Source of the DNA: an uncultured Pelagibacteraceae bacterium
GTDB lineage: Bacteria; Pseudomonadota; Alphaproteobacteria; Pelagibacterales; Pelagibacteraceae
Direction of reading: 5' to 3'
Assembly: GCA_902593905.1 (NCBI GenBank)
Contig: CACJKF010000003.1
Span: forward strand, 1-63,037
DNA: 63,037 nt
Below, in pieces: positions 16,030-26,545 of the stretch; the stretch's first letter is position 1; each line of letters opens with the position of its first letter. The notes beneath the pieces were generated by a model. That model searched no databases. It saw only the letters and a program-made list of their open reading frames with translations, and was not told the origin of the DNA. A program made the position numbers and the translations under genes.

Positions 16030-17837
16030 TGTCAGATACAAAAAGAATACGTAATTTTTCGATAATTGCGCACATTGATCATGGTAAATCTACAATAGCA
16101 GATAGAATAATCCATAAGTGCGGAGGTTTGACAGACCGAGAAATGAAACAACAAGTGTTGGACTCAATGGATATTGAAAGAGAGCGAGGCATTACAATAA
16201 AGGCCCAAACTGTAAAACTTGACTATAAAAGTAAAGACGGTCAAAGTTATAAACTTAATATAATCGATACGCCTGGACACGTGGATTTTGGATACGAAGT
16301 AAGCAGATCACTATCGGCATGCGAAGGCTCACTTTTGATAGTCGATAGCACCCAAGGAGTGGAAGCTCAAACTTTAGCTAATGTATATCAAGCACTTGAG
16401 ATAAATCATGAAGTAATACCTATATTAAATAAAATAGATTTACCTGCATCAGATATAGAAAAAACAAAAAAAGAAATAGAAGACGTAGTTGGAATTGAAA
16501 CTACAAACGCAATTCCATGCTCAGGAAAAACTGGTGAAGGCATTGATGATATTCTAGAGGCAATAATAAATAAGTTGCCAGCCCCAAAAGGCATTACTAA
16601 CGACAAACTTAAATGTTTATTGGTAGACAGTTGGTATGACAGCTATTTGGGTGTGGTTATTCTAGTTCGCGTAATTGACGGTAAATTAAAAAAAGGCATG
16701 AAGATAAAATTAATGTCTAATAATCAAGAACATTTATTAGAAAAAGTAGGAGTATTTACACCTAAACCGACTGATATAGATGAGCTAAACTCAGGTGAAA
16801 TTGGATTTATAATTACAGGTATAAAATCGCTCTCAGAAACAAAAGTTGGAGATACAATATGCGATGCTAACGATCCAATTCATAATCCTTTACCTGGGTT
16901 TAAGCCGAGCAAGCCAGTTGTGTTTTGCGGTTTATTTCCAGTCGATAGTTCAGAGTATCAAAAATTAAAAGACGGTTTAGCTAAACTTAAATTAAATGAT
17001 GCGAGTTTTTCTTATGAACCTGAGTCTTCAAGCGCATTAGGTCTTGGGTTTAGATGTGGTTTTTTAGGTCTTTTACATCTTGAAATAATAACAGAGAGAC
17101 TCGAGAGAGAATTTGATGTAAGTTTAATAACAACTACCCCAGGGGTTATTTACAAAGTTCATACAACTACAAATAAAATATTGGACTTACAAAATCCGAC
17201 AAACATGCCAGACCCCTCTCAAATTGAGAAAATTGAAGAACCTTGGATTAAATCTACCATCATTACACCAGATGAGTATTTAGGTTCGATTATAAAGATT
17301 TGCCAAGATAAAAGAGGAATTCAAACTAATTTATCTTATTCTGGAAGTAGGGCCGTATTATCATATGATTTACCACTCAATGAAGTTGTATTTGATTTTA
17401 ACGATAGGCTAAAATCTGTATCGAGTGGTTATGCAAGTTTTGATTATGAAATTTCTGATTATAGAGAGGGCGATCTTGTCAAATTAGGAATTTTAGTTAA
17501 CTCTGAACCTGTTGATGCTTTAGCAATGATTATTCATAAAGACTTTGCTCAAAAAACTGGTAGACAAGTATGTGAAAAATTAAAAGATTTAATTCCAAGA
17601 CATAACTTTATGATACCAGTGCAAGCAGCTATTGGTGGAAAAATTGTAGCTCGGGAGTCAATCAAAGGATTTAAAAAAGATGTTTTAACAAAAATTCATG
17701 GGGGAGGAGCAACAGATAGAAAGAGAAAGCTATTAGATAAACAAAAAAAAGGTAAGGCTAGGTCAAAACAGTTTGGAAAAGTAGAGATACCGCAAGAAGC
17801 ATTTATTGGAGTTTTAAAAATTAATAAAGAAACTTAA
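16029..17837 (+). CDS. lepA: Elongation factor 4 (LepA) GTPase
   Basis: A ribosome-associated translational GTPase thought to back-translocate stalled ribosomes or aid initiation and assembly. The GTPase domain shows [13 protein letters not shown] (P-loop), RGITIKAQT (switch I), DTPGHVDF and NKIDLP. EF-G-like domains follow, and the LepA-specific C-terminus includes [19 protein letters not shown]. Length 602 is usual. It is coupled by one-base overlaps to pheT upstream and to a glycosyltransferase downstream. Confidence 0.97.
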
Positions 17838-18859
17838 TGAAAAAAAAATTATTTATTTTTACAAATGAAAGTTTTTTTACGCAAGATGAAAAATTTTTTT
17901 GTGATAATATTGACCTTAAATCTAGCCCTGAAGGATTAAATAAAAAATTTGAAGTAAATCTTTTTGGTAGAAAATCCTCAAAAAAAAGAGCACATGAAAT
18001 AAAATTAAAAAAATTAAAAATTTTTTCTAATATATTTTCTTATTTATCCGAAGTAATAAAATCTACAAAAATTGATGATACAAAATTTTTAGTTATTTCT
18101 ATTACCCCTTATACTTTTTTTATATGCCTATTTCTTAGGCTTTATGGAAAAACTCCGATTGTATATTTAAGAAGTGATGGTTACGGAGAATATAAAGCTA
18201 TTCTTGGGAGTATTGGCAAATTGGTTTACCATTGCATGTTTACTATAACTTCATTATTTTCCAATTTTATTAGTTGCAGAAATTATATTTTAAGAGGCAA
18301 GAAAGGCAAAGTCGTTAATCCATCTCAGCTTGATTCTGTTTGGCTTAGGAAGCCAAAAAATCAAGAAGTTAAAAATTTTAAACTTTTATATGTTGGAAGA
18401 ATAAGAGTAGAAAAAGGTATTTTCTCATTAGCTACTTTGATCAAAAATAAGCGAGATATTTCATTAACGATAGTAGGAGCAGAAAAAAATACCTCCTATA
18501 GAATAAATCAAAGTAATATTAATATTCAATTAACTCAAAGCAATAAAGTGAGGCTTATAAAATATTACGATGATCATGATATTTTTGTCTTACCTTCTTT
18601 TACAGAGGGGCATCCTATGGTTTTATTAGAAGCGCTAGCAAGAAGAAGACCTGTAATTGTCTTTGAAGAAATTGAGCACGTCATAGGCGATAAAAAAGGT
18701 ATTTTTGTTGCTAAGCGGAATTTTCTAAATTTTTTTGCAACACTCAACCATATTAAGAAAAATTATAAGAAAATTCAAAAAGATATGATGAAAAATAAAC
18801 TTTCTACAAATAAAGAGTTCATCGAAGAATTTGTAAAAGCAATAGATGATTTCAAATAG
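17837..18859 (+). CDS. Glycosyltransferase family 4-like protein
   Basis: A predicted GT-B glycosyltransferase. The donor half is clear: [19 protein letters not shown] near residue 190, and [25 protein letters not shown] with the Glu residues that bind the sugar nucleotide. The acceptor half is divergent and has a hydrophobic stretch near residue 90 ([21 protein letters not shown]), probably membrane-associated. At 340 residues it is a bit short for the family. The start shares one base with the lepA stop, and the final G of its TAG stop (18859) is the first base of tRNA-Ser. The acceptor is unknown; a surface-polysaccharide role is inferred. Confidence 0.82.
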
Positions 18860-18948
18860 GAGAGGTGGCCGAGTGGTTGAAGGCGCACGCTTGGAAAGCG
18901 TGTAAACGGGAAACCGTTTCGAGGGTTCGAATCCCTCTCTCTCCGCCA
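18859..18948 (+). tRNA. tRNA-Ser(GGA)
   Basis: The cloverleaf can be drawn directly. The acceptor GGAGAGG (18859-18865) pairs with TCTCTCC (18938-18944) with one G-T pair, then discriminator G and encoded CCA (18946-18948). The D-arm has the serine-type GCCGAGTGGTTGAAGGC, the anticodon stem CACGC/GCGTG frames the loop TTGGAAA (anticodon GGA, reads UCU/UCC), there is a long class II variable arm, and the T-arm GAGGG-TTCGAAT-CCCTC is normal. The first base is also the last base of the upstream gene's stop codon. Confidence 0.97.
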
Positions 18949-19014
18949 TTCATTATCCACATACAACTATAAAGAGTCTTAAGAAAAAAGCTCGAATCAT
19001 TTAAATTCATTATA

Positions 19015-19063
19015 GGGGCAGTGGAGGGAGACTGAAGCTGCCTTTGCTATTAAAGGCGAACTC
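19015..19063 (+). other. Unassigned hairpin-rich patch, candidate small structured RNA
   Basis: Within the 121-base gap between tRNA-Ser and the next (convergent) gene, this stretch is clearly more GC-rich than its surroundings and has no ORF. GGCAG (19017-19021) can pair with CTGCC (19038-19042), with an inner CAGT/ACTG pairing. Alternatively GCCTTT (19040-19045) pairs with AAAGGC (19052-19057) around a six-base loop. The two share bases 19040-19042 and exclude each other. It does not match the conserved cores of riboswitches, SRP RNA, tmRNA or RNase P RNA as far as I can recall them. Strand is uncertain; plus is preferred because the tRNA lies just upstream. Confidence 0.35.
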
Positions 19064-19069
19064 AAATTT

Positions 19070-19561
19070 CTATAAATTTTTTATTTTTTCAATCGGCAGA
19101 CGTAAAAATTTGTAGAACGTTTCTATTATTGTCGAAAATATAACAGTTGAAATTAAGCTATAACTAAAAAAAGGTAACGCAAGTGTGTAATTAGTAATTA
19201 ATCCATTTAACGAATATCCATAAGAGCCAAATGTCCACACCCCAAAGTTTGTGACTAAAAAAAATAAAGTTGCCCCTCCTAACGCTCCAAACATTCTGTG
19301 CAAAATAGATTTATTAAAATATTTTGCGACTAAACCTATAAGCAAAACACTACCCCAAGTAAAAACAATTGTAGAATGAAATCCAATAAATAAATCAGTA
19401 ATAATAAATGAAATTAAGACAATTCCTATATTTCTAGTGCCAAAAACGGCTGGTATATAAAAAGATAAAGCTAGTAAACTAGTAAAGTTTGGAGGGTGAG
19501 GGATAAACCTACTTAAAGTTAATGTTAAAAAAATTCCTAAATAAAAGTAAAACTTTTTCAT
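19070..19561 (-). CDS. DUF6580-family membrane protein, possible corrinoid transporter component
   Basis: An inner-membrane protein of 163 aa with about five hydrophobic segments. It has the landmarks I associate with the DUF6580 family: SRFIPHPPNF near the N-terminus, FFLVTNFGVWTFG in the middle and YTLALPFF near the end. The family looks like an S-component of energy-coupling-factor transporters and I recall members next to TonB-dependent B12 receptors; that is background, not shown here. It contains no cysteine. The gene lies ten bases after the BtuB-like receptor in the same orientation, so joint uptake of one ligand is the simplest reading. Confidence 0.7.
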   Translation of the reverse strand: MKKFYFYLGIFLTLTLSRFIPHPPNFTSLLALSFYIPAVFGTRNIGIVLISFIITDLFIGFHSTIVFTWGSVLLIGLVAKYFNKSILHRMFGALGGATLFFLVTNFGVWTFGSYGYSLNGLITNYTLALPFFSYSLISTVIFSTIIETFYKFLRLPIEKIKNL

Positions 19562-19571
19562 AATTTAATTA

Positions 19572-21440
19572 TTAGTATTTGTATAAAAAAGACAAGCTTA
19601 ATCTTCTGCCTTCTTGATTGTATCCATCTGGCCGCTGATAAATTTCGTCTGTTAAATTATTAATATTTAAAAACCATTTTTGCCCTAGAATATCTTTTGA
19701 AAAAGATAAATTCATTATGTCTGTGCTATCTGCATCTTTTCTATCAAAACCGATAAAATCTTCTGCCTTTCCTACATGTTTATAGTCATAGTTTAAATTT
19801 AATTTACCGAAGTATTTTAAATCTAAATTTTGAGAAAAATTCACATTATAAGTTTTTTCTGGTCTTCTTAATTGAGGACGGCCACTACCTTCTCTACTTT
19901 TTGAGAGTGTATTAGCTAATATTAAACTTCTTCTTTCATTTTTAATTTGAATCTTATTTTCCAAACCTTCTTGATTGATATCTATAATTTCATTATAGCC
20001 TCCAGAACTATTGCTTCTATTTAAAACATCAGAGACGTAACTCTTATAAGCAGTTGTTTCAAATATCATTCCGTTCGCAAAATTATAATTTAATGTAAGT
20101 TCTCTAGTTTTGCTTGTTTCTGGTTTTGTTGTTTTCATTGATTTAAAAGATCCCTTGTAATAAGTTGAATTCGAGTTACCACCATGCAAAACATAAAGAT
20201 CTGGGTGTCGTAGGCCAGTTGACTCAGAAATACTTAACTCTAAATTGTTAAATTCTTTTGTGGCATTTAATCTATAAGTAATATTTTCCTCGCTGTATTT
20301 ATGACTATCTCCTCTTATATGTCCAGACAATGTTGTTTTATTATCTGTTTTGAGTCCAGCATTCGCAAAAAATCCTAAATTATCCATATGACCTTTTGCT
20401 GACGATCCATAAGTTCCGTGCACTATAAAATCTCCTTTCGCATAATTATAATCTGAACCAAACCCATAAGATAAATTCTCTGAGTGTTTTATTTTTCTTT
20501 CACCTTTTATTAAATAAGATTGAGAATAGTATTTATTTTTAACATTTTCGTCATATACGCGGTCATAAACATGAACGTGGGTAGAAAATTTACTCTCTTT
20601 ATTTTCTACTTTACTTTCTAAACTTGATTGAACTGCGTACATAAAATTCTTAGCTGTAGCATTTTCATCGGCACTAACATCGTAGCCACTGTTAGTTTTT
20701 CTTAGATAGCCAATATTCTTAAATTTTAAGCCATCATTTAAAAATTTTTGAGAATTATAATTTATCGAAATATTCTTTGTCCCATCCAAGTCTTTTTTTG
20801 AGTTTTTTGCAGTTATAGACTCTGCTTGGGAAACTCCACCTTTTAAATTGTGATGCCAGCCATTATTCGAAATATATGCATAATTACCGTTGAAAGTGTT
20901 ATATCTACTGTCAGTATAAGTTGTATTAAAAGTATTTTGATAATCAATATCAGTAACAAAGTTTACAGCTCCACCAATTGCTGCTGGACCAAAAATTGCA
21001 CTACTAGCTCCCTTATAAATTTCAATTTGTTGCAATCCTTGTAAAAAATCATAGCCAAAATCAAACATTGCCTTTGGCGATCCAATGTCATTTATTGGAA
21101 TGCCGTTTAATAGAACCAAGGTATGATTGGAGTTTGTGCCTCTCATAAAAATTGACGTCTGTTGACCACTAGGTCCGTTTGCATAAACATCTATACCAGG
21201 TATATTTTCTAATACGTCTCTTACATCTTTATAACCAGAATTTATCATCTGGTTTTTTGTTATAACAGTTTTTCCAACGGTCTCTTCGGATAACATTGAG
21301 GTGTTGGGAGCTGAGAATATTGTTATACATGGTACTCCTTTGCTATTATTCCATTTACACTCTTCCAAATTTTCACAAATTAAATTGAATGGGAAAAGAG
21401 CAACCAGTATAATTACCTTAAAAACCGTAATTCTAATCAT
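19572..21440 (-). CDS. TonB-dependent outer-membrane receptor, BtuB-like
   Basis: An outer-membrane active transporter; resemblance to vitamin B12 receptors is strongest in the plug, VRDVLENIPGIDVYANGPSG followed by FMRGTNSNHTLVLLNGIPIND and IEIYKGASSAIFGPAAIGGA. A barrel of about 22 strands follows and the protein ends in an aromatic residue (FLYKY), the outer-membrane insertion signal. The frame is open from ATG 21497, but ATG 21440 gives a normal signal peptide (MIRITVFKVIILVALFPF) and is preferred. It is divergent from a B12-binding radical SAM gene. No cobalamin riboswitch fits in the short upstream gap. Other ligands (heme, siderophore) are possible. Confidence 0.85.
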   Translation of the reverse strand: MIRITVFKVIILVALFPFNLICENLEECKWNNSKGVPCITIFSAPNTSMLSEETVGKTVITKNQMINSGYKDVRDVLENIPGIDVYANGPSGQQTSIFMRGTNSNHTLVLLNGIPINDIGSPKAMFDFGYDFLQGLQQIEIYKGASSAIFGPAAIGGAVNFVTDIDYQNTFNTTYTDSRYNTFNGNYAYISNNGWHHNLKGGVSQAESITAKNSKKDLDGTKNISINYNSQKFLNDGLKFKNIGYLRKTNSGYDVSADENATAKNFMYAVQSSLESKVENKESKFSTHVHVYDRVYDENVKNKYYSQSYLIKGERKIKHSENLSYGFGSDYNYAKGDFIVHGTYGSSAKGHMDNLGFFANAGLKTDNKTTLSGHIRGDSHKYSEENITYRLNATKEFNNLELSISESTGLRHPDLYVLHGGNSNSTYYKGSFKSMKTTKPETSKTRELTLNYNFANGMIFETTAYKSYVSDVLNRSNSSGGYNEIIDINQEGLENKIQIKNERRSLILANTLSKSREGSGRPQLRRPEKTYNVNFSQNLDLKYFGKLNLNYDYKHVGKAEDFIGFDRKDADSTDIMNLSFSKDILGQKWFLNINNLTDEIYQRPDGYNQEGRRLSLSFLYKY

Positions 21441-21550
21441 ATATTTACTTTTTATCTTATTAACGTATTTGAAAAATAAGATTTTATTTTTAGACATTTA
21501 TCAAGGAAAATTCAAATATTTTTAACATTTCAATAAAATCTTAAAACAGA

Positions 21551-21556
21551 TATAAT
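21551..21556 (+). promoter_or_regulatory. Perfect -10 box before the radical SAM gene
   Basis: TATAAT lies 12 bases before the ATG at 21568. The -35 region at 17 bases upstream (TTTCAA) is weak. A start point six to eight bases downstream would leave a leader of about five bases, so the message would be nearly leaderless. The whole divergent gap to the receptor ORF is only 70 bases. Confidence 0.4.
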
Positions 21557-21567
21557 TAATTTAAATT

Positions 21568-23130
21568 ATGAAAACTAATGATAATTTGCCCAAAAAAAAA
21601 CTACTAGCTATAAGATCAGCGACTCTAATCAATAAGTTGACTACAATGATATCTCCTTCGCTGCCTATAGGATTGGCTTATATATTAGGTGCGATTAAGG
21701 ACAAAAATTTAACAATCAAGGCTATTGACGCACTGGGCGAGTCTCCATTTATGAAAGATGCAAAAAAGTTTTCTAATAAAAATTTAATTTTGGGATTAGA
21801 CAATGATAAAATTATGGAACAAACAGAGAGTTTTTCTCCAGACATTGTTCTAATTACATCAATGTTTTCACCTGATTGGTTGATACTTAGAGATCTAATT
21901 GAAAAGCTAAAGAGGAAATTTCCTAAATGTATCATTATTGGAGGAGGAGAACATTTTTCCGCAATGCCGGAATTTTGTTTAAATGAGAGCAAGATAGATT
22001 GCGTTGTTACCGGTGAAGGAGAAGAAACTATAAAAGAAATTATTGATAAAATTTTGAGTGGAGAATTTTGGTCATCTGAAATCAAAGGTACATACATTAG
22101 ATCTGGAAACTCAATAGTAAATGGAGGTCAAAGAGAAAGAGTTAGATGTTTAAAAAATATGCCATGGCCAGCTTGGGAATTTTTTAATATTAATAAAATG
22201 TTAGACAGTGGGCTTGGTAATACTTCTAATCAAAAAAATAATATAAGACCTATGCCTCTTAATGCTACTCGAGGCTGTCCATATCGATGTACTTTTTGTT
22301 CTAATCCACAAATGTGGGGAAAATTATGGAGAGCAAGACCCGCAGAGGATGTAGTAGCGGAAATAAAACATTTACACTCAACATACGGGGCTAATCACTT
22401 TGATTTTACTGATCTCACTTTAGCTGTAAAAAAGGAATGGCTGATCGAATTTTGTGAGGAAATGATTAAAGCTAAAATGAGCATATCCTGGGCTTTACCA
22501 AGCGGTACAAGATCTGAAGTTTTAGATTACCCGATATTAAAACTTCTTAAAGATGCTGGCCTCAATGATATAGATTATGCACCAGAGAGTGGTTCAGAAA
22601 AAATTTTAAAAATTATGAAAAAGCAAATTACAATTAATAATTTGTTATCATCAATTAAGTCAGCTAAACAAGTTGGTTTGAAAATTAAGGTGAATATTAT
22701 TCTTGGGTATCCAGAGGAAACTAGAAAAGACGTTCTAGATACTTTATGGTTTGCAATTAGATGTGCGTATAACGGAACTGATGATTTATTGGTTACCCCA
22801 TTATCTATTTACCCAGGAAGTGCAATACACGAACAAATCAAAGAAGAGAGAAATATTAAATATGATGATTATTATTTTGAAACTTTAACAGACCAGGGTA
22901 GTCTGAACCTTAGCGAGTGTTATTCAAATCATTATACACAATATGAACTTTTCATTTTCAAATATTTAGTGTTTTCTGTTTTTTATTTAAGTAGTTTTTT
23001 ATTTAAACCAAAGAGAATTTTTGTATTGTTTTATGATATGTTTAAAATGGAGGGAAGCACAAGACTTTCAATGGCTTTGATCAATTTCATAAGGAGATTT
23101 AAACTTTCTAACGCCAAAAAAAATTATTAA
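21568..23130 (+). CDS. B12-binding domain radical SAM protein
   Basis: A cobalamin-dependent radical SAM enzyme of the class B methyltransferase/cyclase type. The N-terminal half is a B12-binding Rossmann domain (SPSLPIGLAYILGAIKD; IIIGGGEHFSAMPEFCL; DCVVTGEGEETI). The radical SAM core follows with ATRGCPYRCTFC, the CxxxCxxC cluster motif near residues 237-244. The DxHxxG corrinoid-ligand motif is not present, as in many radical SAM relatives. C-terminal hydrophobic helices suggest membrane contact and a lipid or glycolipid substrate. At 520 residues it is full length. It is divergent from the BtuB-like receptor and followed 51 bases later by a DPM1-like glycosyltransferase. The substrate is unknown. 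Confidence 0.88.
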   Translation: MKTNDNLPKKKLLAIRSATLINKLTTMISPSLPIGLAYILGAIKDKNLTIKAIDALGESPFMKDAKKFSNKNLILGLDNDKIMEQTESFSPDIVLITSMFSPDWLILRDLIEKLKRKFPKCIIIGGGEHFSAMPEFCLNESKIDCVVTGEGEETIKEIIDKILSGEFWSSEIKGTYIRSGNSIVNGGQRERVRCLKNMPWPAWEFFNINKMLDSGLGNTSNQKNNIRPMPLNATRGCPYRCTFCSNPQMWGKLWRARPAEDVVAEIKHLHSTYGANHFDFTDLTLAVKKEWLIEFCEEMIKAKMSISWALPSGTRSEVLDYPILKLLKDAGLNDIDYAPESGSEKILKIMKKQITINNLLSSIKSAKQVGLKIKVNIILGYPEETRKDVLDTLWFAIRCAYNGTDDLLVTPLSIYPGSAIHEQIKEERNIKYDDYYFETLTDQGSLNLSECYSNHYTQYELFIFKYLVFSVFYLSSFLFKPKRIFVLFYDMFKMEGSTRLSMALINFIRRFKLSNAKKNY

Positions 23131-23181: not shown

Positions 23182-23886
23182 ATGACTAAAAATATTGTAT
23201 TTACCGCTACTTACAACGAATGCGAGAATATTGAAGATTTTTTAAATAAAGTTTTTAGTTTGTCTGAGGATTTAGACGTTTTAATAATTGATGATAATTC
23301 CCCTGATTTAACCTGGAAGTTAGTTCAAGATTATCAAATAAGGCAAAACAAAATTAAGCTAATAAAAAGAGAAAAAAAAGAAGGTCTTAATACGGCCCAT
23401 AAACTTGCTTATCAATATGCAAAAGAAAACAATTATGACAAACTAATAACTTTGGATGCAGATTTATCACACGATCCTTTGATAATTCCATTATTTTTAC
23501 AAAAGTTAAACTCAAATCCTTTTGTTATTGGCTCAAGATACATGCCTGGAGGAAGAAATGAAATGGGTCTATTCAGAAACATTTTGAGTTATTTTGGAAA
23601 TAAATTAATAAAATTTGTTTTAAAAATAGATATTGACGAATTTACTACTTCATATAGAGGGTTTAACCTCAGATTATTAAATAATTTTGATATGAAAAAT
23701 GTAACACTAAAAGGATATAGCTTTTTTATGGGTACAATTAACTTACTAAAAAATACTGGTAATAATATAGTTCAAATACCTATAGTTTTTAGAGACAGAA
23801 CCAAAGGAGAGTCAAAAATCCCTAAAATTGAAATATTTAGAACTTTAAAAAATCTTTTATTGATAAAACTTGGCTTTATAAAATAA
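23182..23886 (+). CDS. Polyprenol-phosphate glycosyltransferase (DPM1-like, GT2)
   Basis: Transfers a sugar from a nucleotide donor to polyprenyl phosphate on the cytoplasmic membrane face. It shows IIDDNSPDLTWKLV and ITLDADLSHDP (the DxD-type metal site), then FVIGSRYMPGG and EFTTSYRGFNLRLL, all typical of dolichol-phosphate mannose synthase-like enzymes. It has no C-terminal membrane helices (234 aa), like the soluble DPM1 form. It converges on the gene cluster starting at 23897, which holds a GT-C-like membrane protein that could use its product. Confidence 0.88.
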   Translation: MTKNIVFTATYNECENIEDFLNKVFSLSEDLDVLIIDDNSPDLTWKLVQDYQIRQNKIKLIKREKKEGLNTAHKLAYQYAKENNYDKLITLDADLSHDPLIIPLFLQKLNSNPFVIGSRYMPGGRNEMGLFRNILSYFGNKLIKFVLKIDIDEFTTSYRGFNLRLLNNFDMKNVTLKGYSFFMGTINLLKNTGNNIVQIPIVFRDRTKGESKIPKIEIFRTLKNLLLIKLGFIK

Positions 23887-24183: not shown

Positions 24184-25797
24184 TTAATTTATTTTCTTTT
24201 TATAGATACTTGTAACTGCATGTCCATCAATTAGCAACTCGTAATATAATTCAAACTGTTCGTTATTTTCTATTTCATTATTAATTCTAATTCTTCTCAT
24301 TTTATTATTAATTATATAATTAGAATTTTTAAAATCTGATAAAACTATTCTTTTTCTATCTTCTTCTTTTAAAGAAAGATAGCTATCTCTTAGACTTGTA
24401 AATCCTTCTGCGAAAACTTTTATATCAAAATTCTTATCGTTTTTTAAAATATATTCTAAAGAGGACTTATGTGAAATACCCCACCAATCCAAATCAAAAT
24501 TTTTTAAAGCATAATTTTTAGAAAAAATATTAAAAAAAACATATTGATGAGGGTGATTTTTAATTGTCCAAGACAAATTATAAATAAGATTAATAGAAAT
24601 CAAAAAAACAATTATAAGTTTTATAACTTTTTTTAATTTAATCCTTTCTAATTTCTTTAAGGTATAAATTGAAAAATATACTATTATAGGAAATAAAAAA
24701 TAAATGTGCCGCCATCCACCAAACTTCGATTTCGTAAATTCTACAACAATTATAAAAGTTAATATTAGAGTTAATAATAAAAATATGTCTAAAAACTTTT
24801 TTTGATTTAGCTCGAACTCGTCATTTAAGCTTTGCTTTAAGTAATTGAAAAGTTTTCGTAAAGCATACGAAAATCCAATTGAAAACAAAACCAATATAAA
24901 TATAGGTGTAGTAATCAAAAACCAAACTAAACGGTAATGCCAAGCCATCATGTCGCTAGGGTAATAAGTTCCAAAATAAAAGTTAACAACTGTTATAGCG
25001 CTATGATCTTTTATAATATTTTTGAATGCAAAAATAAGATTACTTAAAGGGTCAGACCATAAATAAGGCCATAAAATGAAAATAAAAATCATTGTTAAAG
25101 ATAAATATAAAAAAACTTGCTTATAGTTTTTATAAAATCTTTTTTTTGTATTAAGAAAGTTATAAAAATAAAGAATTAAAAATAAACCAAACGGAATCAA
25201 ACTAATTACTTTTGTATTTATAAGTAAAGCACTAAAAAAAGAGAATAGAAGTGTATTTATTGTATTACTTCTGCTTATAAACTCGTTTGCCCAATAAATA
25301 TAAAAAATAAAAATAGACATGAAAAATATATCTCTAGAATTATAAAAGGACTCAGCAAAAATACGAGGTGAAAAAACTAAGAAAGTGACAGCACAAATTG
25401 ATAAAAAAACATTTTCAAATCTTTTTAAAATCAATTTGAAGAACAACACTAAGCTAAGGAAAAAAATTATGAAGTTTATTCTATGAGACAGTAAGTAAAT
25501 TTCTTCATATTTAGTTGAGTTTAAAAGTTTTGAAAAAACAACTAAAACAAACTCAAAAACTATAGGCCATTCTTTTATACGATTTTTGAAATAATCTAAA
25601 TTTATATCGCTACTAATTATACTTAGAAAAAAATTTTTTACATAAAGATAAGTATTTAGACCATTCTTGTAATAGTGCTCATCATCTAACGTAACTCCAA
25701 AGTCGCCAGTTATTTGCCAGCAAATTAAAAATAAAAATAAAAAATATAAACTAATAGTTTGTTTCTGATATTTAAAAAAAATTTTATTTGTTATCAC
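24184..25797 (-). CDS. GT-C-type membrane glycosyltransferase (ArnT/PMT-like)
   Basis: A multi-spanning inner-membrane protein of 537 aa with about 11-12 helices. After the first helix a loop has VTLDDEHYYKNGLNTY, with the acidic pair expected of GT-C enzymes, and later FSPRIFAESFYNSRDIFFMSIFI resembles the ArnT/PMT group. The C-terminal domain after the last helix is small and probably periplasmic. Such enzymes take sugar from polyprenyl phosphate and add it to a lipid or protein outside the membrane; the DPM1-like gene at 23182 is a natural donor source. It overlaps the FkbM gene by 14 bases. Confidence 0.78.
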   Translation of the reverse strand: MITNKIFFKYQKQTISLYFLFLFLICWQITGDFGVTLDDEHYYKNGLNTYLYVKNFFLSIISSDINLDYFKNRIKEWPIVFEFVLVVFSKLLNSTKYEEIYLLSHRINFIIFFLSLVLFFKLILKRFENVFLSICAVTFLVFSPRIFAESFYNSRDIFFMSIFIFYIYWANEFISRSNTINTLLFSFFSALLINTKVISLIPFGLFLILYFYNFLNTKKRFYKNYKQVFLYLSLTMIFIFILWPYLWSDPLSNLIFAFKNIIKDHSAITVVNFYFGTYYPSDMMAWHYRLVWFLITTPIFILVLFSIGFSYALRKLFNYLKQSLNDEFELNQKKFLDIFLLLTLILTFIIVVEFTKSKFGGWRHIYFLFPIIVYFSIYTLKKLERIKLKKVIKLIIVFLISINLIYNLSWTIKNHPHQYVFFNIFSKNYALKNFDLDWWGISHKSSLEYILKNDKNFDIKVFAEGFTSLRDSYLSLKEEDRKRIVLSDFKNSNYIINNKMRRIRINNEIENNEQFELYYELLIDGHAVTSIYKKKIN

Positions 25798-26545
25798 TTC
25801 TATAATTGTTATTAATTAATAAAAAATCTGCCGCTTTTAAATTACTTAAAATACTGACAGAATGTATGGGATATTCTTTTATAAATTTAAAATTTTCTTT
25901 TTCAAGATGATTTAAGATCTTATCCTTTTTTTGCTTAAATAATTGCTTAGTTGACAAAATTTCAACATATATTAATTTAACTTTGTTGTTTTCAAACATT
26001 TTAGATGCGCCTTCAAGAATATACTCTTCATGACCTTCAGCATCAATTTTAAGTAAATCAATTTTATCTATTTGATTGGTAGAACAAAATTTATCTATTG
26101 TATTTGTCTTAACTTCAAATGATTTAAAGTTGTTTTTACTATTTAGATCAAAAATATTAAATGTAGAAATAAGTTTTCTTGAAATATTCCAGAGTTTATC
26201 GTCTTTAGAAATAGTTTGAAAACTTGATCCACTCGCTTCGAAAAAACTGTTTAAATGAAATATCTTTTTCTCTGTTTGATTGCTTAATCCTACACAATCA
26301 AAAGATATGTTAGGATTTTTATTTATAAGTTCATCAAGATATAATCTACTTTTAGGATTTGGATCAAATAAAAAATATTTAGTTTCTTTGTTTTGATCGA
26401 TTTTTAATATTTTTTTTGTAAAACGTCCTTTAAAACTTCCAACATCAAAAATTACTTTTTGTGGTTCATTTTTTATAATTTTATAGATTGTTTTTTCATT
26501 ATTATTCATCAAAAAAATATCAACTAAGTTATACAAAAAATTCAT
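25784..26545 (-). CDS. FkbM-family methyltransferase
   Basis: A SAM-dependent O-methyltransferase, commonly acting on sugars. VIFDVGSFKGRFTKKIL (near residue 33) is motif I, and IDKIDLLKIDAEGHEEYILEGA is the FkbM hallmark with the metal/substrate Asp and Glu. Length 253 is normal. A start at the internal ATG at residue 13 (MNNNEKTIYK) is also possible. It lies between the NlpC/P60 gene (3-base gap) and the GT-C gene (14-base overlap), so it likely methylates the same glycan. Confidence 0.88.
   Translation of the reverse strand: MNFLYNLVDIFLMNNNEKTIYKIIKNEPQKVIFDVGSFKGRFTKKILKIDQNKETKYFLFDPNPKSRLYLDELINKNPNISFDCVGLSNQTEKKIFHLNSFFEASGSSFQTISKDDKLWNISRKLISTFNIFDLNSKNNFKSFEVKTNTIDKFCSTNQIDKIDLLKIDAEGHEEYILEGASKMFENNKVKLIYVEILSTKQLFKQKKDKILNHLEKENFKFIKEYPIHSVSILSNLKAADFLLINNNYRSDNK

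Follow-up and report, generated by a model that had tools for sequence, protein, structure and literature searches.

A BtuB-like receptor, a predicted stand-alone corrinoid carrier and a B12-type radical SAM enzyme encoded together in a Pelagibacteraceae genome

Introduction

How might vitamin B12 cross the inner membrane of a bacterium in which the usual pump for it is not found? Many bacteria have BtuB but lack BtuCDF, and for these no protein has been assigned to the transport of B12 across the inner membrane (PMC6072759). The marine SAR11 bacteria have been described as B12 auxotrophic (PMC9296465), and both MetH and MetE are reported to be missing from them (PMC12478193). Here we analyze a locus that raises this question, in a 63,037-nucleotide stretch of DNA (hereafter the window; contig CACJKF010000003.1 of assembly GCA_902593905.1) from an uncultured Pelagibacteraceae bacterium whose genome assembly amounts to 848 kb in 30 contigs and is 77% complete. 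The locus combines genes for a BtuB-like TonB-dependent receptor, a small membrane protein of the DUF6580 family and a radical S-adenosylmethionine (SAM) protein with a B12-binding domain. An earlier interpretation, made from the letters of the window and its open reading frames (hereafter the sequence-only reading), had proposed that the three genes form a self-contained unit for taking up and using a corrinoid, possibly acquired together. The uptake-and-use idea appears mostly right, save for joint acquisition and the TonB step. The cassette probably brings a corrinoid across both membranes for a B12-dependent radical SAM enzyme, and the trio probably includes a new family of stand-alone B12 carriers. 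The observations computed here are the gene identities, a protein fold, the co-location of the genes and the finding of no other known corrinoid importers or users.

Results and discussion

A divergent three-gene cassette that recurs in relatives

Open reading frames (ORFs), domain searches and the spacing of the genes all confirm the divergent cassette described in the sequence-only reading. The DUF6580 gene (19070-19561, minus strand, 163 amino acids) encodes a predicted solitary corrinoid carrier of the inner membrane with an S-component fold. Ten bases upstream of it, on the same strand, lies the receptor gene (19572-21497, 641 amino acids, with a Plug domain). The gene for the radical SAM protein, which is of the class B type (21568-23130, plus strand, 520 amino acids), reads in the opposite direction from a 70-base intergenic region (21498-21567). 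Promoter-like matches in this divergent region were not above chance expectation, and no cobalamin riboswitch was found between positions 17000 and 25000 in an Rfam search (E up to 5).

The association of the three genes exceeds chance. Our genus sample consisted of 37 genomes that are incomplete and related, so that Fisher p values from it are only indicative. The receptor and DUF6580 were both found in 11 of them, DUF6580 alone in one (a fragment) and neither in 25 (p = 1.4e-8). Proteins matching the B12-binding family PF02310 over cut-off were present in 11 of the 12 genomes with DUF6580 versus 5 of the 25 others (p 5e-5). We also surveyed the neighborhoods of 80 DUF6580 loci from named genomes. 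A receptor adjoins DUF6580 in 29 of 33 Pelagibacteraceae-type loci, in all five loci of the sister family and in 16 of 17 loci from SAR116 and other alphaproteobacteria. In 24 of the 33 Pelagibacteraceae-type loci, a gene for a B12-type radical SAM protein was found no more than three ORFs away; the same held for 4 of 138 background ORFs and for none of the 47 loci of other lineages. The co-occurrence elsewhere that the sequence-only reading had anticipated was thus observed, both for the receptor pair and for the radical SAM gene.

A receptor of the BtuB type

The window receptor matches the Pfam Plug domain at 79.7 bits. Its best NCBIfam model is BtuB (PRK10641, 141 bits), with the best non-B12 model at 71, and its closest solved structures in a PDB sequence comparison are those of BtuB. 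B12 receptor models also scored best for all ten further receptors tested. A grouping with siderophore or heme receptors, the alternative considered for this protein, was not seen. However, the receptor falls below the NCBIfam equivalog cut-offs for BtuB (141 against 836 and 105.7 against 599.7 bits), and it is therefore named BtuB-like rather than BtuB. Judged by these sequence comparisons it is of the BtuB type, and it is predicted to bind cobalamin. It shares with BtuB of Escherichia coli the Plug domain and NCBIfam and PDB matches over nearly the full length, but differs in scoring far under the equivalog cut-off, in belonging to a genome in which TonB, ExbBD and BtuC were not found, and in having phage-borne receptors as its closest relatives beyond its own family. 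No further relative of this receptor type was found in its own genome. Another locus contains a 1992-amino-acid open frame directly upstream of DUF6580 (L121:3945-9923) that matches the receptor profile made here and no Pfam family at E 1e-5; this is possibly a very long receptor variant.

A DUF6580 protein with the predicted fold of a vitamin carrier

The 163-amino-acid protein matches PF20221 (DUF6580) at 97.6 bits against a gathering cut-off of 27. The identity assigned in the sequence-only reading therefore stands, whereas its likely role as an inner-membrane B12 carrier had been missed. No mention of DUF6580 by name was found in the literature searched. An AlphaFold2 model, built on an alignment of 70 relatives, is confident (predicted local distance difference test 91.1, predicted template modelling score 0.85). 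Among the structures compared, its best match is BtuM with cyanocobalamin (8c7p; Z 14.3, root mean square deviation 2.7, 153 residues). The first 17 rows of the structural ranking are all S-components of energy-coupling factor (ECF) transporters, with the 16 after BtuM at Z 9.3-13.9, and the first structure that is not an S-component has a Z of 7.7. Since we treat Z values within 1 of the top as tied, and scores near the top are tied, the comparison establishes the fold and not the substrate: in the model, the fold of DUF6580 is that of the ECF vitamin S-components.

Among the 70 relatives, R18, H22, D56, N105, W109 and P130 are invariant and H62 is nearly so (99%). The conserved positions comprise R18, PHPPNFT (21-27), D56, G60, H62, F100-W109, Y114, G120, Y125, P130 and F131, and residues at 85% conservation or above are nearly all in or beside the loops that join helices 1-2, 3-4 and 5-6. 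In S-components, these are the loops that build the substrate site. The model thus places the invariant residues, two histidines among them, at the predicted substrate side. H62 is the counterpart of loop L3 of BtuM, matched by helix order rather than by a measured superposition; in BtuM this loop contains the essential Cys80, the cobalt ligand (PMC6072759). At residue 124, also near the predicted substrate side, 58 of the 70 relatives have cysteine and the window protein has asparagine.

The likeness to BtuM of Thiobacillus denitrificans (PMC6072759; 8c7p) extends to the small six-helix S-component fold, a genome without an ECF module (no CbiQ/EcfT, 61 genomes), a gene found beside a BtuB-type receptor and a candidate cobalt ligand within loop L3. 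The two proteins differ in that no sequence relationship is detectable, a profile of 16 DUF6580 relatives having failed to match BtuM or any other PDB sequence at E up to 10. They differ too in that DUF6580 has no invariant cysteine, with H62 in L3 where BtuM has Cys80, in addition to the invariant H22. Going by the model, DUF6580 looks like a stand-alone inner-membrane B12 carrier, and the presence of BtuFCD would therefore not be required.

A corrinoid is suggested as the ligand because B12 receptors, NrdJ, cobalamin adenosyltransferase and mutase genes neighbor DUF6580 in several lineages. In Levybacteria (L164:6818-11180), genes for the adenosylcobalamin-dependent (class II) ribonucleotide reductase NrdJ (558.7 bits, cut-off 399.95), a small ORF, DUF6580 and a cobalamin adenosyltransferase (178.6 bits, cut-off 108.45) follow one another in one direction, the last two overlapping; this is a candidate phylum in which an outer membrane is not expected. 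In Ignavibacteriota (L170, L178) a methylmalonyl-CoA mutase gene (>1200 bits) lies two genes from DUF6580. Omnitrophota have DUF6580 beside a receptor, in one case in the order DUF6580, receptor, TonB (L163).

The radical SAM protein as the likely user

The window radical SAM protein matches Radical_SAM (PF04055) at 84.5 bits and the B12-binding domain (PF02310) at 63 bits (cut-off 32.1), has a CxxxCxxC motif at 237-244 that is invariant in the alignment and ends in a hydrophobic stretch. The domains named in the sequence-only reading are therefore present, while the cobalamin requirement that went with them is likely. The structural model matches MgmA, TsrM, OxsB, CysS and TokK, and equally AprD4. 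AprD4 has a B12-binding fold but no cobalamin cofactor, so that use of B12 by the window enzyme is, from its model, likely rather than certain. With the class B enzymes MgmA, TsrM, OxsB, CysS, TokK, BchE and HpnJ it shares the order of B12-binding and then radical SAM domain, the CxxxCxxC motif and a long structural match. It differs from them in exceeding no curated family cut-off (25 listed, including BchE, HpnJ and P-methylase; best BchE, 150.9 against 481) and in that the closest relative seen is 28% identical.

Within its incomplete genome this is the only PF02310 protein found, and no NrdJ over cut-off, adenosyltransferase or BtuC was found there either, in agreement with the earlier proposal of a self-contained system serving one enzyme. 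A gene for a family 2 glycosyltransferase (23182-23886, plus strand; PF00535, 76.9 bits) follows the radical SAM gene after 51 bases, in the same orientation, and is a possible pathway partner. Together with the hydrophobic C-terminus, it suggests a membrane-linked glycan or lipid as the substrate of the enzyme.

Other importers and users of B12

We searched 61 genomes for other routes of B12 import. No FecCD protein of the BtuC type was found in any of them, and the BtuCD route was rejected. The search returned only weak matches of about 267 amino acids, near or under the cut-off and also in cassette-free genomes; we rejected these as BtuC and infer that they look like a zinc-type permease. 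An ECF module was likewise rejected, as EcfT/CbiQ was found in none of the genomes and the controls were found. BtuFCD, raised in the sequence-only reading as a possible part of the system, is thus not represented by any BtuC-type permease found in the source genome.

The search for B12 users covered PF02310 proteins and, of the B12 enzymes that lack this domain (QueG among them), only NrdJ. Across the 37 genus genomes, NrdJ was not detected over cut-off, neither PduO nor CobO was detected as an adenosyltransferase, and no PF02310 protein over cut-off had the size of a mutase or MetH. All PF02310 proteins over cut-off were radical SAM-sized, and on the lack of NrdJ over cut-off and of either adenosyltransferase, adenosylcobalamin metabolism was rejected for the genus. 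In the 24 genomes of the sister family, DUF6580 was found in 22, NrdJ in 23 and an adenosyltransferase in 21. The large PF02310 proteins of this family are mutases that share about 60% identity with one that was confirmed, and neither BtuC nor EcfT was found in any of the 24. Their gene content indicates that the sister-family organisms need adenosylcobalamin, with the receptor and DUF6580 as the sole import candidates seen.

Proposed mechanism and its alternatives

In the mechanism that we propose, the BtuB-like receptor would carry vitamin B12 or a related corrinoid across the outer membrane. The six-helix DUF6580 protein, BtuM-like but of another sequence family, would bind it on the periplasmic side, probably in the base-off state, with H62 or H22 as the invariant histidine that replaces the BtuM cysteine, and would deliver it to the cytoplasm with no help from an ECF or BtuCD pump. 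Adenosylation would not be needed because the user would be a radical SAM enzyme of the methylcobalamin type, one that probably methylates a surface glycan or its lipid carrier. In this scheme we infer the ligand, the transport, the cobalt ligand, and the cobalamin use and product of the enzyme. DUF6580 is a concrete candidate for the inner-membrane B12 step in bacteria that have BtuB without BtuCDF, and the apparent B12 demand of some SAR11 members may come from a group of radical SAM enzymes encoded in glycan gene regions. More generally, the cassette points to a way in which B12 might be acquired by bacteria that lack the usual pump and by some marine viruses.

Several findings weigh against this interpretation. 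First, FolT, BioY and ThiT come to within 1.2 Z of the BtuM score in the DUF6580 comparison, S-component folds serve many vitamins, and Foldseek alone gave no significant match to the model (best E 0.69). Such level scores for one fold with many substrates leave room for DUF6580 to carry another nutrient, be it a lower-ligand base, cobinamide or an unrelated vitamin, with the receptor importing the same compound; B12 precursors would even give identical gene neighbors. We consider this improbable, as in several lineages those neighbors are B12 receptors, B12 enzymes and cobalamin adenosyltransferase, and no alternative importer was found in genomes that need adenosylcobalamin. One sister genome, G039 (98% complete), also speaks against the proposed route: it has NrdJ and mutase-type proteins and so seems to need B12, and DUF6580 was not found in it, nor was BtuC.

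Second, the high score of AprD4, level with that of the cobalamin enzymes, means that a B12-binding fold is no proof of cobalamin use, five genus members have PF02310 proteins over cut-off with no DUF6580 found, and further B12 users may have been missed in a source genome that is 77% complete. The receptor and DUF6580 might thus import a corrinoid for some other user, such as QueG or a B12 enzyme encoded in the quarter of the genome that is missing from the assembly, with the radical SAM gene a passenger of a variable glycan region. This would fit the differences among nearly all cassette radical SAM genes (see below) and the SAR116 and sister-family loci that hold the pair without a radical SAM neighbor. 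It is nonetheless unlikely, although less so than another nutrient, given that none of the 37 genus genomes yielded another of the B12 users searched for and that the radical SAM gene recurs beside DUF6580 far above background.

Third, neither TonB_C (PF03544), TonB_2 (PF13103) nor a second ExbD was found in the 61 genomes. In a source genome that is 77% complete, TonB and ExbBD, the partners raised in the sequence-only reading, may have been missed. The TolQRA tol operon of relatives is the only related motor seen. The protein at the TolA position matched no Pfam family and no PDB sequence. In five relatives (L111:4844-8123, L112:4223-7467, L113, L114 and L115) there is one TolR/ExbD per genome, inside the tol operon. 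The receptors are intact despite the lack of a recognized TonB, and receptors of this sort are likewise retained in B12-needing sister genomes that are nearly complete.

Receptor and enzyme exchange around a constant carrier

The Pelagibacteraceae DUF6580 proteins form nearly one group on the tree, the exceptions being G022 and L173. Two unrelated types of receptor accompany them, A (13 rows, including the window) and B (24 rows). Receptor A and all 26 phage receptors lie on one side of a branch, with B elsewhere (FastTree support only). On the DUF6580 tree the A and B receptors are intermixed, requiring at least nine changes, and an arrangement with the A receptors as one clade was rejected by the approximately unbiased test (p = 0.0005). 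Clustering at 40% identity sorts the 41 radical SAM proteins of such loci and genomes into 19 groups, one of which consists of the window protein alone. The carrier has thus been constant while receptor and enzyme were exchanged. Receptor switching and varied enzymes on a constant DUF6580 argue against acquisition of the three genes as a single block, and the same test rejects joint acquisition of the receptor with DUF6580. The suggestion that the genes were acquired together was therefore not upheld: DUF6580 has its own history, the receptor swaps between two lineages and the enzymes differ almost from genome to genome.

This pattern bears on whether the receptor, traded with phages, is retained chiefly as a decoy on the cell surface or for interaction with phages, the co-location of the genes reflecting a variable surface region and no pathway. 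Window-type receptors do group with those of phage contigs, receptors were swapped while DUF6580 was kept, and TonB was not found. But a decoy would have no use for DUF6580, and receptor and inner-membrane carrier stay paired in very distant bacteria as well as in phages and B12-needing sister genomes, and we therefore regard this explanation as very improbable. Uptake of a corrinoid by the pair is our preferred reading.

The receptor and DUF6580 on phage contigs

DUF6580 was found on 91 viral contigs, of which we read 80 (L198-L277). A BtuB-like receptor adjoins it in 36 of these 80 marine contigs. Examples of the pair are at L219:7971-10318, L204:6265-8477 and L211:7965-10330. Sampled contigs encode tail sheath, baseplate, head and terminase proteins, and a large terminase was found on 11 of 24 receptor-bearing contigs. 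B12 receptor models score best for the phage-contig receptors. Of seven radical SAM proteins near viral DUF6580 genes, four have a B12-binding domain, two of them over cut-off. Isolated phages and plasmids had no match to the window DUF6580, and isolated phages had none to a viral DUF6580 either. No description of a phage-borne BtuB with cobalamin uptake was found in the literature searched. The viral DUF6580 and receptor are a possible phage-borne B12 uptake pair, which, if true, would add a new kind to the nutrient genes that phages carry.

With somewhat less confidence than for the cassette itself, we lean towards a broader interpretation. DUF6580 would be an unrecognized, widespread family of stand-alone corrinoid permeases, with histidine for the BtuM cysteine, in SAR11, SAR116, Omnitrophota, candidate-phylum bacteria and marine phages. 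In phages, it and a BtuB-like receptor would together make up a module for B12 uptake across two membranes, and the phage receptors would have a common ancestry with the receptors used by part of SAR11.

Genomic surroundings of the cassette

The closest named relatives of the window DUF6580 are from Pelagibacteraceae single-cell genomes, and the SAR11-type assignment is therefore right. On the 3' side of the DUF6580 gene, a G+C-rich stretch (GGGGCAGTGGAGGGAGACTGAAGCTGCC; 18985-19069) stands within AT-rich surroundings and gave only a weak, chance-level Rfam match. The tRNA and glycan genes that the sequence-only reading had placed beside the cassette are indeed there: a tRNA-Ser(GGA) gene (18859-18948), glycosyltransferase genes on either flank, that on the side away from the radical SAM gene at 17837-18859, and an FkbM methyltransferase gene (25784-26545). 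The surroundings also contain housekeeping genes, for example those for phenylalanyl- and threonyl-type tRNA synthetases.

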